From: Hirudinaria manillensis
Lineage: Eukaryota; Annelida; Clitellata; Hirudinida; Hirudinidae
Reading direction: 5' to 3'
DNA: 64,000 bases
NCBI GenBank assembly: GCA_034509925.1
Contig: CM067526.1
Coordinates: 5,785,001-5,849,000 of the forward strand
The position numbers and the translations under genes were made by a program. Below are positions 1,061-28,610 of the stretch, piece after piece. How positions within the stretch are numbered: the stretch's first letter is position 1; each line of letters opens with the position of its first letter. A model generated the notes under the pieces. That model had not been told where the DNA came from and did not search any database. It saw only the letters and a program-made list of their open reading frames with translations.

Positions 1061-1520
1061 GAAAGAGAATCGCAACACAGGACTGTTTCAATACTGTCCT
1101 TACAAACTGGTGGTTTCAACGTAGAAATGTACGGAGTTGCCTCATTGACTGAGTCGAATTGAGCCAACTGCATTGAACGAATACTGTTAACTATGATTTT
1201 TTCTGGTGTATAGTTGTTTGACTTTGTTTAATTAATAACGTTTACATATTTATTTCCAAATATAATAATAATATGACGTCATTTACGGAATCAGAATTAA
1301 GAAGTTAAATTTACTGTTATTGAACAATTACCAAGTACTGGTTTTGGACAATCTCTTGAAAAGTACTGGTACTTGGATAAGGAATTCTGGCCACAAGTCT
1401 GATATATTTTATGATGAAGCAGACGACGAAGGTGATGGTGATGGTGATGGTGATGATACCAAGTGTGTTCTCTTCTGACGACCCGTTTAAAAGGATCTCC
1501 AAACTCTTCCATTCTTGTAA
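1061..1520. other. Spacer with a perfect CRE octamer
   Basis: No gene. TGACGTCA lies at 1274-1281. A GGTGAT hexamer run lies at about 1428-1458. Confidence 0.5.
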
Positions 1521-1894
1521 ACTCACTCACTCACTCACTCACTCACTCACTCACTCACTCACTCACTCACTCACTCACTCACTCACTCACTCACTCACTC
1601 ACTCACTCACTCACTCACTCACTCACTCACTCACTCACTCACTCACTCACTCACTCACTCACTCACTCACTCACTCACTCACTCACTCACTCACTCACTC
1701 ACTCACTCACTCACTCACTCACTCACTCACTCACTCACTCACTCACTCACTCACTCACTCACTCACTCACTCACTCACTCACTCACTCACTCACTCACTC
1801 ACTCACTCACTCACTCACTCACTCACTCACTCACTCACTCACTCACTCACTCACTCACTCACTCACTCACTCACTCACTCACTCACTCACTCAC
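1521..1894. repeat. ACTC tetranucleotide array, about 94 units
   Basis: An uninterrupted ACTC run of about 374 bp. It translates to His-Ser-Leu-Thr in any forward frame, which gives spurious long ORFs on the plus strand. Confidence 0.98.
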
Positions 1895-2151
1895 ACACTC
1901 ATCACAAAGAAAGATAAGGATGTAATATTTTAACAATAAGTAAACATATTGTTGTATCAGTATAAGTATAATAAGCGTTCAAATACTCATTCTCACCATT
2001 CCGACGATCTTTCCATGCGGTTTCGCAACATCACAACATCACAACATCACAACATCACAACTCGCTGAACCGTCAATATCTGAACGGTCCTTATTCCCTT
2101 GGCGAATTTCTCCAGTGTCCATCACACGTTTCTTATCCTCTCTGTGAGTGG
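1895..2151. other. Unique spacer between two ACTC arrays, with an 8-bp tandem repeat
   Basis: Mostly unique. At about 2026-2061 an AACATCAC unit is repeated four times and more. Confidence 0.7.
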
Positions 2152-2950
2152 ACTCACTCACTCACTCACTCACTCACTCACTCACTCACTCACTCACTCA
2201 CTCACTCACTCACTCACTCACTCACTCACTCACTCACTCACTCACTCACTCACTCACTCACTCACTCACTCACTCACTCACTCACTCACTCACTCACTCA
2301 CTCACTCACTCACTCACTCACTCACTCACTCACTCACTCACTCACTCACTCACTCACTCACTCACTCACTCACTCACTCACTCACTCACTCACTCACTCA
2401 CTCACTCACTCACTCACTCACTCACTCACTCACTCACTCACTCACTCACTCACTCACTCACTCACTCACTCACTCACTCACTCACTCACTCACTCACTCA
2501 CTCACTCACTCACTCACTCACTCACTCACTCACGCACTCACTCACTCACTCACTCGCTCACTCACTCACATCACTCACTCACTCACTCACTCACTCACTC
2601 ACTCACTCACTCACTCACTCACTCACTCACTCACTCACTCACTCACTCACTCACTCACTCACTCACTCACTCACTCACTCACTCACTCACTCACTCACTC
2701 ACTCACTCACTCACTCACTCACTCACTCACTCACTCACTCACTCACTCACTCACTCACTCACTCACTCACTCACTCACTCACTCACTCACTCACTCACTC
2801 ACTCACTCACTCACTCACTCACTCACTCCACTCACTCACTCACTCACTCACTCACTCACTCACTCACTCACTCACTCACTCACTCACTCACTCACTCACT
2901 CACTCACTCACTCACTCACTCACTCACTCACTCACTCACTCACTCACTCA
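2152..2950. repeat. ACTC tetranucleotide array, about 200 units
   Basis: Nearly 800 bp of ACTC. It is broken by G variants near 2534 and 2556, an extra dinucleotide near 2569 and an extra C near 2828. The long intact blocks between these rare variants suggest recent expansion or strong homogenisation. Confidence 0.98.
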
Positions 2951-3280
2951 CCCACCATGGAAATTGTGGGCGAAATTATGGCTTGGCGGACGATGTTCAA
3001 GGTGGAAAGATAATGAAGAAACAAGGAGTGCATGGATGGTCGTTGGTGAATTGGGTGCATTCTGATTACCAACAGAAGCTCTTGGAAGATACTGGTCTTG
3101 GTGATGATAATGATGGTGGTAAAGACTGCGATGGCGTTGATGGTGATTATTATAATAATTGCTAGTAATCTTCTTTAATTATGACTAAATTATTGTTATT
3201 AAACTTACAGTTGTTTCGCCAAAGGGTTCTCTAAAAATACAATTCATGGATTGTATTTCGAATTACTTGATTCGCTCAAT
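2951..3280. other. Unique spacer
   Basis: I see no gene or structured element here apart from GATGGT/GATAAT triplet traces at 3098-3160. Confidence 0.5.
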
Positions 3281-24087: not shown

Positions 24088-27000
24088 ATGACAAAACAAA
24101 AACAGCGAGATGTTTACGAGGAGGATTTCGAAGATGAGGAGCCGGATTTTAGTGACCCAGAGGATTTTGTGGACAAAATCTCTGATCAAGGTTTGCTCAT
24201 CTTCAATCACGCTTTCACCCAAGCTCATGCTTTCTTATGATTTCTGTGCTATTCTTGACTTCGGCAAAATTTCAGATGTTCTCATTAAAATGTCACTTGC
24301 GTAAAGATAGTTTGGCGCTGGTAATAAATATGATCGCGATGAAGTTGCTGCTCCACAATATGCTAACGTTACCAGCCTTTCTGGAGCGTTGCGTATTTGT
24401 AATTTGCAATTGTTAACCACATTTGAGTAATTGGATCTAAATCCATGAAAATAATGCAGTCAGCCTAATTGTTTTCTTAGTTGATTGAGTTTATAACAAT
24501 ATCTGTTATTGTTACATTCATGACATGGATCTTTTTCCTTGCAGAGCTTTTAGGAGATTTAGTGAAGCAGAAGCCAAAGGAGATAGACGGCATAGAATCA
24601 GTCATAATAGTTGACAATGTTCCGCAAGTAGGTCCAGAGAGGCTGGAGAAGTTGCAGAACATCATTCGTAAGATCTTCAGCAAGTTTGGCACCATAGTTA
24701 ACGAGTGCTACCCGTCCAAGAACGGATCTACCAAGGGTTTCATCTTCATCGAATATCAAAATGGATCGGAGGCACAGAAAGCCGTTGCAGCTGCTGATGG
24801 TTACAAACTAGACAAGCAACACATCTTTTCTGTCAGCCTCATGAGTGATGTTAACAAGTGAGTTGAATTATTCTAAAATAACATAAAAATGTCAATATCT
24901 CTGTAAACGACGTGGTGGCTTTCAGGTACATGAACACGCCAGACAAATGGGAGGAGCCTGTGGCCATGCCGTACAAGGACCACGTGAGTTATTAATATCC
25001 TAAATTCCTACAATTTAATAACAGCTGAATATGATGAGAACATGGAATGCTTTGTCTCGAAATTAGTGATGACAAATTGATTCTGATTCAGCTGTTATAA
25101 ATTAAATTATTTATAATAAAATTTGAAACTAAAGTAAATGATTTCATTTGCAGGGAAATCTCTATGGTTGGTTGGCAAACCCTCATTGTTACGATCAGTT
25201 TGGAGTGATCCATGAAGGAGGAGAGACCACCTCTCTTTTCCTCAACACCCCTGGGGAACCTCAATGTTTGGAGTCAAGAAAGGTTGGTTACAGCGATAAT
25301 TATTATTTGTTTTATTGTTCATGTCTCTTGGAAACCAAGAAATCATGTTAACTAATTTTGACATTTCCAGAGATGGACAGAAAGTTACATCAAATGGTCG
25401 CCAAAGGGCACCTACCTATTGACCTTCCACCAGAAGGGTATTGCCCTCTGGGGAGGAGAAAAGATGGGACAGATCATGAAGTTCAGTCACCCTGGTGTTC
25501 TGCATTGTGACTTTTCTCCTTGTGAAAGGTATTTTGTCTCATTTTGAATTATCATATTGGCATTGTATTGTGGCATCAAGTGATGCAATATGTGTTTACA
25601 TGGAAAGCAAATATATCATCAATCTGTAACATACAATGTAACAACACCACAGGTACTTGGCTACTTATTCATCTGCTGCTGATAACAAGGATGACCCTCA
25701 GGCAATCATAATCTGGGATGTCAAAACTGGAGCAAAGAAGAGAGGCTTCCATTGTGATAATCCCAACCCATGGCCTGTTTTCAAGTAAGATTCCAGAACA
25801 AGTTTTCTTTTATTGTGATTCAAAGCAACTTATATACAAAACTATATATAATGATATTGAAGATTGAAAATAAGTTGCAAATATATATATATAATACAAT
25901 TATATATTTAATTTGATATTTTATGGCCTAATCTGGTTAGTTAAAAAATATTTGTTTCGTGTTATAGGTGGAGTCATGATGGAAAGTTCTTTGCAAGGAT
26001 GGCCAATGATGCTTTGAGTATTTATGAGACTCCCGTAAGTGTTCTGACACGTATTGTTAAATACTCATATGGCTTATAGCATTAAATTTATTTACATATT
26101 TATTATAATAATAATTATATAATTGTGTGCATAATTTGTCATTCAGTCGTTCGGTCTCCTCGACAAGAAGAGCTTAAAAATCAAGGGCCTGAAAGACTTC
26201 TCCTGGTCTCCCACCGACAACATCATCGCGTACTGGACAGGAGAGGAACGTGACACCCCTGCCAGGGTCACCCTCGTAGAGTTGCCCAGCAACGCCACTC
26301 TCTGCAACAAGAACCTCTTCGCAGTTGCCGACTGCAGGATGCACTGGCAGAAGTCGGGGTCGTACCTTTGCATCAAGGTCGACAGGTACAAGTCGAAGAA
26401 AGAGGAAAAGGATGGAATGAAGTACAGCGTGAGTTGAACATAATTGCTTTCGTAACTGACTAGTAGTGGTGGTGATGATAGTAGTAGTGGATGTGTATGT
26501 CATTTGGATGGATAATAGTCGTACAGTTATTGCAAGATGCTGATGAGGCTGAGTTATGATGGCATCCTTAGGAATGCTTTGTCTTGATTTTAAATATGAA
26601 GATAAATCAGTTCTGAATCAGCCCTCTTGCAATACAAAATAATATACTGAACATGATGACAATCTTTGGAATGCTTTGTCTCGATACGATGATGATACCA
26701 GACATCCGATTCAGGATATATATATCCATATGTGTATATGATCTTACTACTGCCTGACTGGGAGTTGAGCTTCAAATGATGACAGCATTTGGAATGCTTT
26801 GTCTTGAAAAGTCTTCCTGATGATACCAACTGTCTGATGACTCAACTTACTTAACTGCCTTAACTGAGAGGCTTAATAGAATTTATTAACAAACACATGA
26901 ATGTTTGATTGCAGGGCCTGTCACACAACTTCAACATATTCAGGATCAGGGAAAAGGAGATCCCAGTTGACATCGTTGAAGTAAAAGGTACTGAAGCTAA

Positions 27001-28610
27001 GCCTCCATTTTTTGCAATCGTGCAATCATTAATCTGGATTCATTCTTTTGCCAGACCCCATATCGGCCTTTGCCTGGGAACCCGTCGGTCACAGGTTCGC
27101 CTGCATCCACGGAGATTCGAAGATCAACGTCAGCTTTTATAACGTTAAACCGGGAGGAGTCGTCGAACTAATCAGTGAGTTTCGGATTAACATTTGACAT
27201 TTAATTGATTTTACATGTCTCGGTATTTTTGGTTAAACATTCGTTAAAATCTTTCAGAGACCTTCGAGAGGAAGCAGGTCAACCACCTCTTCTGGAGTCC
27301 GAACGGCCAATTCATAGTACTTGCCGGTCTCAGGAAGTAAGCGACTTGAAAATCTTTAAACAAAATTTACTATGAAATTAAAATTGAACTTTTCTCGACA
27401 GTCTGAACGGAGTGTTGGAGTTTGTCGACACCAACGACATGTCCGTCATGGTACAGGCAGAGCACTTCATGGCCACCGACGTCGAATGGGATCCGACCGG
27501 ACGCTACGTCGCCACGGGGGTCAGTTGGTGGGGTCACAAGGTCGACAATGCATTCTGGATTTGGAATTTCCAGGTAAGAAAGTCATCGACTGAATGCTTT
27601 TTTTGGATTGTTAACAAACTTTGTTTTGACTTTGACAGGGCAAGATCCTTCACAAACAAATCATAGACAGGTATTGCCAGATTGTATGGAGGCCAAGACC
27701 ACCTACTCTTTTAACTCCTGAACAACTCAAGGTAGGAAATTATTAAACCGTCGAATGAAAGAAGAAGGTCATGTGAATTTAAAACTTTAATTTCTGTTTC
27801 TAAAAGGAAATCAAAAAGAACATGAAGAAATACAACATCCAGTTCAGCATTGAGGACAAGAAGAGGGAGTCTAAAGCATCAAAGGTTTGATTTTTATATT
27901 CTTACAAATAATTTTGTATCTACAATATCTTAAAATATTATGCTAAATATTCGTGGCTGTAAGATAATCTGTGGTTGCAAAACATTTGTCTTGAAAAACA
28001 TTGATTATGAAAAGCCGATCAACCACCCCTAACACACAAATCTAAATATATATAATTAGGGACTGAACATGATTAAGACTTTGGAATGCTTTGTCTTGAT
28101 TTTTATCTGAAGACGATATTCATCAATGATTCAGTCCAGCACATTTACATTATTATCACATAATTAGTTAAATTGCATTCACTAAATGATTTTTAATTCT
28201 TTAACAGGAGCAGAAAGAGAGGAGAAGGAAGCTTCATGTGGAGCATGGAATGTGGCAGGGAGAGATGGAAGAGAGACGTGCAGAGGACAAGAGGAGGAGA
28301 CTCGAGCTCAGATGCGGTAAGTTCCGAGTGGTTTGCTTGGCACGACCAGTAGGCGGATAGGATGATTCAGACTTGGAATGCTTTGTCTTAATTCAAACTG
28401 ATGAGCACCAATAGCTGATCCACGTTGCCTCTTCATGAAACTGAGCATAAATTAACCTGCCTTGAAATTATTTTAAAATTTTTTTGTAATTCATCTCCAG
28501 GTATCGACACTGACGAGTTCGACAGTCACGTGGAAAACATCGAAGAGGAGATCGTAGAGTTCTTGGTGGAAGTCAGAGAGATTATCTTAGACGAGGAAGA
28601 GGAGGAGTAA
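24088..28610 (+). CDS. EIF3B: Eukaryotic translation initiation factor 3 subunit B, 16 exons
   Basis: Core scaffold subunit of eIF3, which loads mRNA onto the 40S ribosome in the cytoplasm. Exons: 24088-24190, 24545-24857, 24926-24983, 25154-25282, 25371-25528, 25653-25784, 25968-26034, 26147-26428, 26915-26987, 27055-27174, 27258-27336, 27402-27573, 27639-27731, 27807-27884, 28208-28316, 28501-28610. The spliced length is 2,076 nt, giving 691 residues, with phase consistent at every junction (human about 814, yeast Prt1 763). An acidic N-terminus is followed by an RRM at residues ~53-136, then the beta-propeller with repeated WSP/W.H blades, and a charged C-terminal helix ending in poly-Glu. 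The start ATG precedes the acidic segment; an extra upstream exon cannot be excluded. Introns 3, 8, 14 and 15 contain six snoRNA-like units. Confidence 0.95.
25018..25098 (+). ncRNA. C/D-box snoRNA-like unit 1 (EIF3B intron 3)
   Basis: The best-preserved copy. A perfect 13-bp terminal stem (25018-25030 with 25086-25098), C box ATGATGA at 25031-25037, D'-like TCGA at 25057-25060, C' box GTGATGA at 25066-25072 and D box CTGA at 25083-25086. Box order, spacing and the closing stem match the C/D snoRNA fold. The sequence before D' carries the core GGAATGCTTTGTCT shared by all six units. The unit sits inside a 170-bp intron, with short flanks as expected for splicing-dependent processing. Confidence 0.85.
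26528..26633 (+). ncRNA. C/D-box snoRNA-like unit 2 (EIF3B intron 8)
   Basis: The outer stem ATTGCAAG pairs with CTTGCAAT, and an inner AGGCTGA pairs with TCAGCCCT. C box ATGATGG at 26555-26561 differs from consensus at its last base. D'-like TTGA at 26584-26587, C'-like ATGAAGA at about 26595-26601 and D box CTGA at 26613-26616. Shares the GGAATGCTTTGTCT core. First of three units in this intron. Confidence 0.75.
26645..26716 (+). ncRNA. C/D-box snoRNA-like unit 3 (EIF3B intron 8), weak D box
   Basis: C box ATGATGA at 26653-26659, the shared core, D'-like TCGA at 26681-26684 and C' ATGATGA at 26689-26695. The D-box position holds CCGA (26706-26709) and the closing stem is short (CTGAA with TTCAG), so it may be decaying. 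Confidence 0.55.
26763..26847 (+). ncRNA. C/D-box snoRNA-like unit 4 (EIF3B intron 8)
   Basis: The closing stem AGTTGAG (26763-26769) pairs with CTCAACT (26841-26847). C box ATGATGA at 26776-26782, shared core, D'-like TTGA at 26804-26807, C' CTGATGA at 26817-26823 and D box CTGA at 26834-26837. All four boxes are good. Confidence 0.8.
28060..28137 (+). ncRNA. C/D-box snoRNA-like unit 5 (EIF3B intron 14), degenerate boxes
   Basis: A perfect closing stem GGACTGAA (28060-28067) with TTCAGTCC (28130-28137) and the shared core. The C box reads ATGATTA and the D-box position reads ATGA (28126-28129), so kink-turn pairing is compromised. Possibly a pseudogene. Confidence 0.5.
28351..28428 (+). ncRNA. 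C/D-box snoRNA-like unit 6 (EIF3B intron 15)
   Basis: C-box-like GATGATT at about 28361-28367, shared core followed by CTTAA in place of CTTGA, a good C' CTGATGA at 28398-28404 and D box CTGA at 28415-28418. The closing stem is weak, limited to GGA/TCC and AGGC/GCCT pairs. Confidence 0.6.

Follow-up and report, generated by a model that had tools for sequence, protein, structure and literature searches.

Cis-duplication has been named for chicken small nucleolar RNAs (snoRNAs): box C/D paralogs share a host gene and sit in its introns, with guide regions and structures maintained and the rest of the sequence varying (PMC2653536). Isoform clusters in Drosophila likewise place several related snoRNAs in the introns of one gene (the Uhg genes, lola, Arpc2 and dom; PMC13228274). 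Here we describe a probable further case in a 64,000-nucleotide stretch of the annelid Hirudinaria manillensis (GenBank assembly GCA_034509925.1, contig CM067526.1, positions 5,785,001 to 5,849,000), which we call the window: six C/D-type units, u1 to u6, in four introns of EIF3B, all carrying the same guide. Cis-duplicated paralogs are characterised by multiple copies within a single host gene and by a kept guide, and the kind is already known; what is new here is the 28S ribosomal RNA (rRNA) target of this family.

Two features set the locus apart from the chicken set (PMC2653536): EIF3B carries six copies, including three within a single intron, and the guide fits a 28S base differing from annelid and consensus 28S. 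It differs from the Drosophila clusters in its host, EIF3B (PMC13228274). A literature search, judged by titles and the starts of abstracts, found no description of EIF3B as a snoRNA host. SNORD2 lies in another initiation-factor gene, EIF4A2, and differs from the present units in being single-copy and carrying another guide. Like them, it is an intronic C/D snoRNA (PMC11028025). The host gene and the units are as follows.

24088..28610, + strand: coding part of the EIF3B host gene, 16 exons (gene model; product identified as eIF3b)
25018..25098, + strand: u1, intron 3; C ATGATGA at 25031, D' TCGA at 25057, C' GTGATGA at 25066, D CTGA at 25083
25018-25029 with 25087-25098, + strand: 12-bp closing stem of u1; 0 of 1000 shuffles equal
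26547..26623, + strand: u2, intron 8; C ATGATGG at 26556, D CTGA at 26613, stem GGCTGA/TCAGCC
26530-26537 (TTGCAAGA) with 26625-26632 (TCTTGCAA), + strand: 8-bp outer stem of u2, seen by eye only
26645..26716, + strand: u3, intron 8; C ATGATGA at 26653, D CCGA at 26706, stem CTGAA/TTCAG
26763..26847, + strand: u4, intron 8; C ATGATGA at 26776, D CTGA at 26834, stem AGTTGAG/CTCAACT
28060..28137, + strand: u5, intron 14; C ATGATTA at 28069, D ATGA at 28126, stem GGACTGAA/TTCAGTCC
28351..28430, + strand: u6, intron 15; C ATGATTC at 28362, D CTGA at 28415, stem weak or absent

The 16 exons join into a clean reading frame, and the product matches solved eIF3b with E 1.3e-286, in agreement with Pfam. 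The best matches among eIF3b proteins score 955 bits and weaker ones, from fungi, 301-398 bits, consistent with an animal gene. This gene model confirms the intron assignments of the original prediction, an earlier reading of the letters alone: intron 3 holds u1, intron 8 holds u2, u3 and u4, intron 14 holds u5 and intron 15 holds u6. From the end of the D box to the 3' splice site, the last units of the four host introns lie at 67, 77, 78 and 82 nt, and the two non-last units of intron 8 lie farther from it, at 298 nt (u2) and 205 nt (u3). Intronic C/D snoRNAs have a conserved position, with the branch point approximately 50 nt downstream of them, and the 67-82 nt spacing is in line with this (PMC8162545).

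All six units have a box C/D layout, with D'-like and C'-like boxes between C and D and a span of 56-62 nt from C to D. The most canonical is u1, in which C, C' and D are all exact and the stem reaches 12 bp. The C box matches RTGATGA exactly in u1, u3 and u4 and is altered in u2, u5 and u6; the D box is CTGA in four units (u1, u2, u4 and u6) and altered in u3 (CCGA) and u5 (ATGA). Both are exact in u1 and u4 only, the others having one or two base changes in one or both, and C' is exact in u1 and u3 with one or two changes elsewhere. The predicted C/D layout stands, but several boxes are imperfect and D' is never CTGA.

For the closing stems, shuffled flanks were equal or better in 0, 55, 17, 3, 1 and 537 of 1000 trials for u1 to u6, which supports a stem in five of the six units (u2 marginally). 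The mean flank pairing of the six is -11.1 kcal/mol, versus -4.6 in shuffles (0 of 2000 equal), and flanks cross-paired between units (30 combinations) give a mean of -5.4 and a best of -11.1 kcal/mol. The prediction of a stem in most units thus holds for five, but none can be demonstrated for u6. Whole-unit folding z-scores range from -3.04 (u4) to -0.11 (u3), so folding energy alone fails to mark all six.

What the units have in common is a 14-mer, GGAATGCTTTGTCT, ending on the first base of the D' box. Its layout is identical in all six and is spelled out for u1:

25044..25057, + strand: invariant 14-mer of u1; 25044-25055 (GGAATGCTTTGT) pair with 28S ACAAAGCATTCC, 25056 (position 1) stays unpaired, 25057 opens D'
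26571..26584, + strand: invariant 14-mer of u2
26668..26681, + strand: invariant 14-mer of u3
26791..26804, + strand: invariant 14-mer of u4
28083..28096, + strand: invariant 14-mer of u5
28375..28388, + strand: invariant 14-mer of u6

As the original prediction had it, the 14-mer is present without change in every unit: the window holds six exact + strand copies, all within 3.4 kb. Allowing up to 2 mismatches still gives 6, against a shuffle mean of 0.58 (maximum 3; 0 of 100 shuffles reach 6). The 148.4-Mb assembly holds 8 exact matches, 6 in EIF3B and 2 elsewhere, and the reversed pattern gives 1.

Around this core the units have diverged. Pairwise identity averages 1.00 across the core and 0.84 across the C box. 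It drops to 0.43 for the 6 nt that precede the core, 0.31 for the 8 nt following D', 0.29 for the 10 nt leading up to D and 0.32 for an outer flank, with 0.26 expected from composition. Over 14 nt, a stretch that includes C' bases, D-guide identity is 0.38, and u3 and u4 have the few bases just after C' in common. The earlier claim that the D-box guide differs in each copy is borne out by these values. Because most of the sequence outside the core is near random identity, the duplications are judged old, and because the surrounding sequence has drifted, the invariance of the core requires constraint, presumably purifying selection. Gene conversion is an unlikely source of the core identity: it would keep adjacent bases alike too.

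The kept guide has a predicted target. Guide positions 2-13 before D' form a perfect 12-bp complement of ACAAAGCATTCC, found in 28S fragments of the species' own genome. With D' taken as TTGA, TCGA or TTAA, the C at position 1 is left unpaired, pairing covers positions 2-13, and the base opposite position 5 is the central A of an AAA. At least 10 nt upstream of D or D' that match rRNA, with the methylated base facing the fifth nucleotide, are the mark of a box C/D guide, and the D' guide has this arrangement. On the fragment of contig C9, the duplex extends to 14 pairs in u3-u6 (adding G.U and A-U), 13 in u1 and 12 in u2. When guides were shuffled, 2, 0, 0, 0, 0 and 0 of 100 were equal for u1 to u6 (five targets, 2,970 nt: 28S parts, two of them overlapping, plus an 18S stretch); the best score of u2 falls on the diverged C12 copy. 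This in-register target, absent from the original prediction, further supports its reading of the units as a family.

The guide also distinguishes between 28S versions. Four 28S fragments of the assembly cover the site: one on C9, one on C12 (with the full ACAAAGCATTCC), one on C7 (with ATTCC at its edge) and L017, also on C9. The C9 fragment (Rfam LSU match, opposite strand) reads TCTAATTAAAACAAAGCATTCCGATGG. Its own-genome GCAUUCC corresponds to GCAUUGC in an annelid 28S piece (L031) and in the Rfam consensus, and the guide carries, at its twelfth position, the G that matches the C of the own genome where the other two have G. The duplex is predicted to be most stable with own 28S (-18.9 to -20.5 kcal/mol), less so with the annelid piece (-14.6 to -16.3) and least with the consensus (-11.3 to -12.8). 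When the C9 fragment is aligned to the Rfam model, this C comes to stand opposite another C in the adjoining helix, at a place that is a G-C pair in the consensus. The C is probably a derived base, judging by the two comparisons (annelid piece and Rfam consensus).

The second guides, those before the D box, behave differently: for all six the best scores lie between 7 and 8.5 and are equalled by 47 to 95 of 100 shuffles, so none exceeds background in the 2,970 nt tested. A D target may still lie elsewhere, in 5.8S, the small nuclear RNAs, the greater part of 18S or the 5' half of 28S. The D guide is best read as unconstrained. Double guides make up approximately 15% of 83 chicken guide snoRNAs and an unconstrained D guide is therefore a common situation (PMC2653536).

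Counting along a yeast sequence, we take the predicted A to be the equivalent of yeast U2148 and human A3652. The same numbering yields the expected nucleotides at Cm2197, Am2220 and Am2256 of Table 2 in PMC11542601. That table, in which sites from human, yeast, algae and archaea appear only if they are shared with plants, has no methylation at the target. A literature search by human position numbers, which did not cover supplementary Drosophila and human site tables, found none there either. Searching by guide and target letters gave no paper on this guide, and the papers containing both 'snoRNA' and the guide letters are, by title, on other subjects.

Taken together, these results lead us to read the six units as a cis-duplicated, intron-hosted C/D snoRNA family that guides 2'-O-methylation of one 28S adenosine, with a probability of about 0.82. 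Repeated duplication within EIF3B would have produced the six copies. Splicing and trimming of the EIF3B introns would release six intron-encoded box C/D snoRNAs, which, if expressed and assembled into small nucleolar ribonucleoproteins, would each pair through the D' guide with 28S at ACAAAGCAUUCC. Methylation would be directed to the central A of the AAA in 28S AAAACAAAGCAUUCC, which lies five positions from D', and the D guide, free of constraint, would have drifted. The original prediction of a cis-amplified family that keeps one guide while the other diverges is upheld in this form by the boxes, most stems, the intron position and the invariant D' versus near-random D guides.

Several observations weigh against this reading. 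The C or D box is off consensus in u2, u3, u5 and u6, D' is TTGA, TCGA or TTAA with CUGA in 0 of 6, and the flanks of u6 pair no better than shuffled ones (537 of 1000 equal). Intron 8 holds three units, which breaks the usual rule of one snoRNA per intron (PMC11028025). The 28S base was read from rDNA fragments, one of them adjoining a retroelement, and not from an intact array; three of the four site-covering fragments keep ATTCC, and the diverged L017 differs. The target itself was found by searching the assembly with ACAAAGCATTNCGA, taken from a 28S context (five matches, of which L010, L012 and L013 were read), and the target scan was made with that candidate site already in mind.

No Rfam model matches at gathering score anywhere in the 64 kb, so the family is not catalogued in Rfam. 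A sensitive scan gives C/D matches of 16-26.4 bits on the units, versus gathering cut-offs of 41-90: at u1 SNORD73 (26.4 bits, E 0.38, covering only the 3' half of the unit), SNORD79 (25 bits, E 1.5) and snoU25 (24 bits, E 0.14), at u2 SNORD58 (22.6 bits) and at u4 GlsR14 (16 bits). In the same scan u3, u5 and u6 have no Rfam C/D match up to E 10. The covariance-model check proposed with the original prediction is therefore mixed, with no gathering score reached but weak C/D matches at three units. This failure bears on membership in a catalogued family more than on the C/D snoRNA class.

A less favourable account is that only some units are active (e.g., u1, u3 and u4) and that u2, u5 and u6 are pseudogenes being lost. 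It draws on the C or D changes in those three (the D of u3 is changed also) and on the lack of a clear stem in u6. However, the 14-mer is intact in 6 of 6 beside drifted neighbours, which is unexpected for dead copies that old, and u5 keeps a strong stem (1 of 1000 shuffles equal); we think such partial loss rather unlikely, though it deserves serious consideration. We give considerably less credence to the idea that these are C/D snoRNAs whose antisense element helps rRNA folding or processing without methylation. The duplex length of 12 to 14 bp, the entry of the 28S target into a helix with a C.C mismatch in the C9 fragment and the degenerate D' in 6 of 6 would suit such a helper, but the pairing keeps the register of a methylation guide (position 1 unpaired, 2-13 paired, A at position 5), C'-like boxes are present and guides of 10-21 nt are ordinary (PMC8162545). 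That the units are a dispersed repeat or splicing element merely containing TGATGA motifs is highly improbable: ATGATG-type simple repeats abound in the window and make several spurious C/D-like places, but exact patterns and one DNA search found no further member in the assembly, the outer flanks are not common to the copies (identity 0.32) and the core forms an in-register complement of 28S.

If the methylation-guide reading is right, the locus is a natural case of guide retention after cis-duplication, with one half invariant in six copies and the other near random. It would add a C/D family missing from Rfam and a predicted 28S methylation site, and since the guide fits a base that differs from annelid and consensus 28S, guide-rRNA co-evolution becomes directly testable. 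More speculatively, the site may be a 28S methylation absent from the sources consulted and served by six redundant snoRNAs, whose guide co-evolved with a derived base that opens a helix G-C pair; the duplex may then also aid folding of the weakened helix.

We see no convincing family member outside EIF3B by exact patterns, a u1 DNA search and a model-based scan of nine loci. The DNA search with u1 alone returned only u1, missing the other five, and so has little weight for diverged copies. A pattern of TGAT plus the core finds the six and seven others in the assembly (reversed pattern, 2). A model, R1, was derived from the six units themselves, which makes the scores it gives them no evidence; on the seven pattern matches and the two extra 14-mers its best score is 28.4 bits (L038, contig C2) and its next 20.5 bits (L008, which contains the core itself). 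The L038 match (1463-1536) is intron-like, with TGATGA repeats and GAATGCTTTGT and without a D box, and we rate it as chance or a relic. One extra 14-mer is found on C4 in sense orientation within a 342-aa frame; the mRNA would therefore carry the guide sequence and not its complement, and no C/D layout is visible; the other, on C7, was rejected because the C/D layout is absent.

Within EIF3B, intron 14 may hold a decayed seventh copy, a suggestion we make with low confidence:

27966..28041, + strand: candidate decayed seventh copy; partial core TTTGTCTTGA, 7-bp stem GTGGTTG/CAACCAC, without C box

It scores 8.9 bits (E 0.7 in 4.7 kb), belongs to repeat family D13 and has a fold energy z-score of -0.32.

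Ten partial 28S matches are scattered through the assembly. No intact rDNA array was found in it (28S occurs in fragments, 18S in three fragments only), the 18S 3' end is absent at up to 2 mismatches, and scans of viral contigs for rDNA gave no match. On C9, approximately 4 kb from the contig start, a 28S fragment is joined to a reverse-transcriptase frame (RVT_1; L013, 2-1471 and 1381-1770), at a junction resembling the R2 insertion site. A scan of genome contigs gave one 28S piece, L031, in the bin of an annelid's symbiont: positions 1-470 of this record, whose title is bacterial endosymbiont of Escarpia laminata, contain 28S of animal type that gives way, by eye, to other sequence after approximately base 467. 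This piece is likely host contamination of the symbiont bin. Elsewhere in the window, positions 1381-3165 consist of very long tandem repeats, with THSL repeats in several frames, and many other simple repeats occur.

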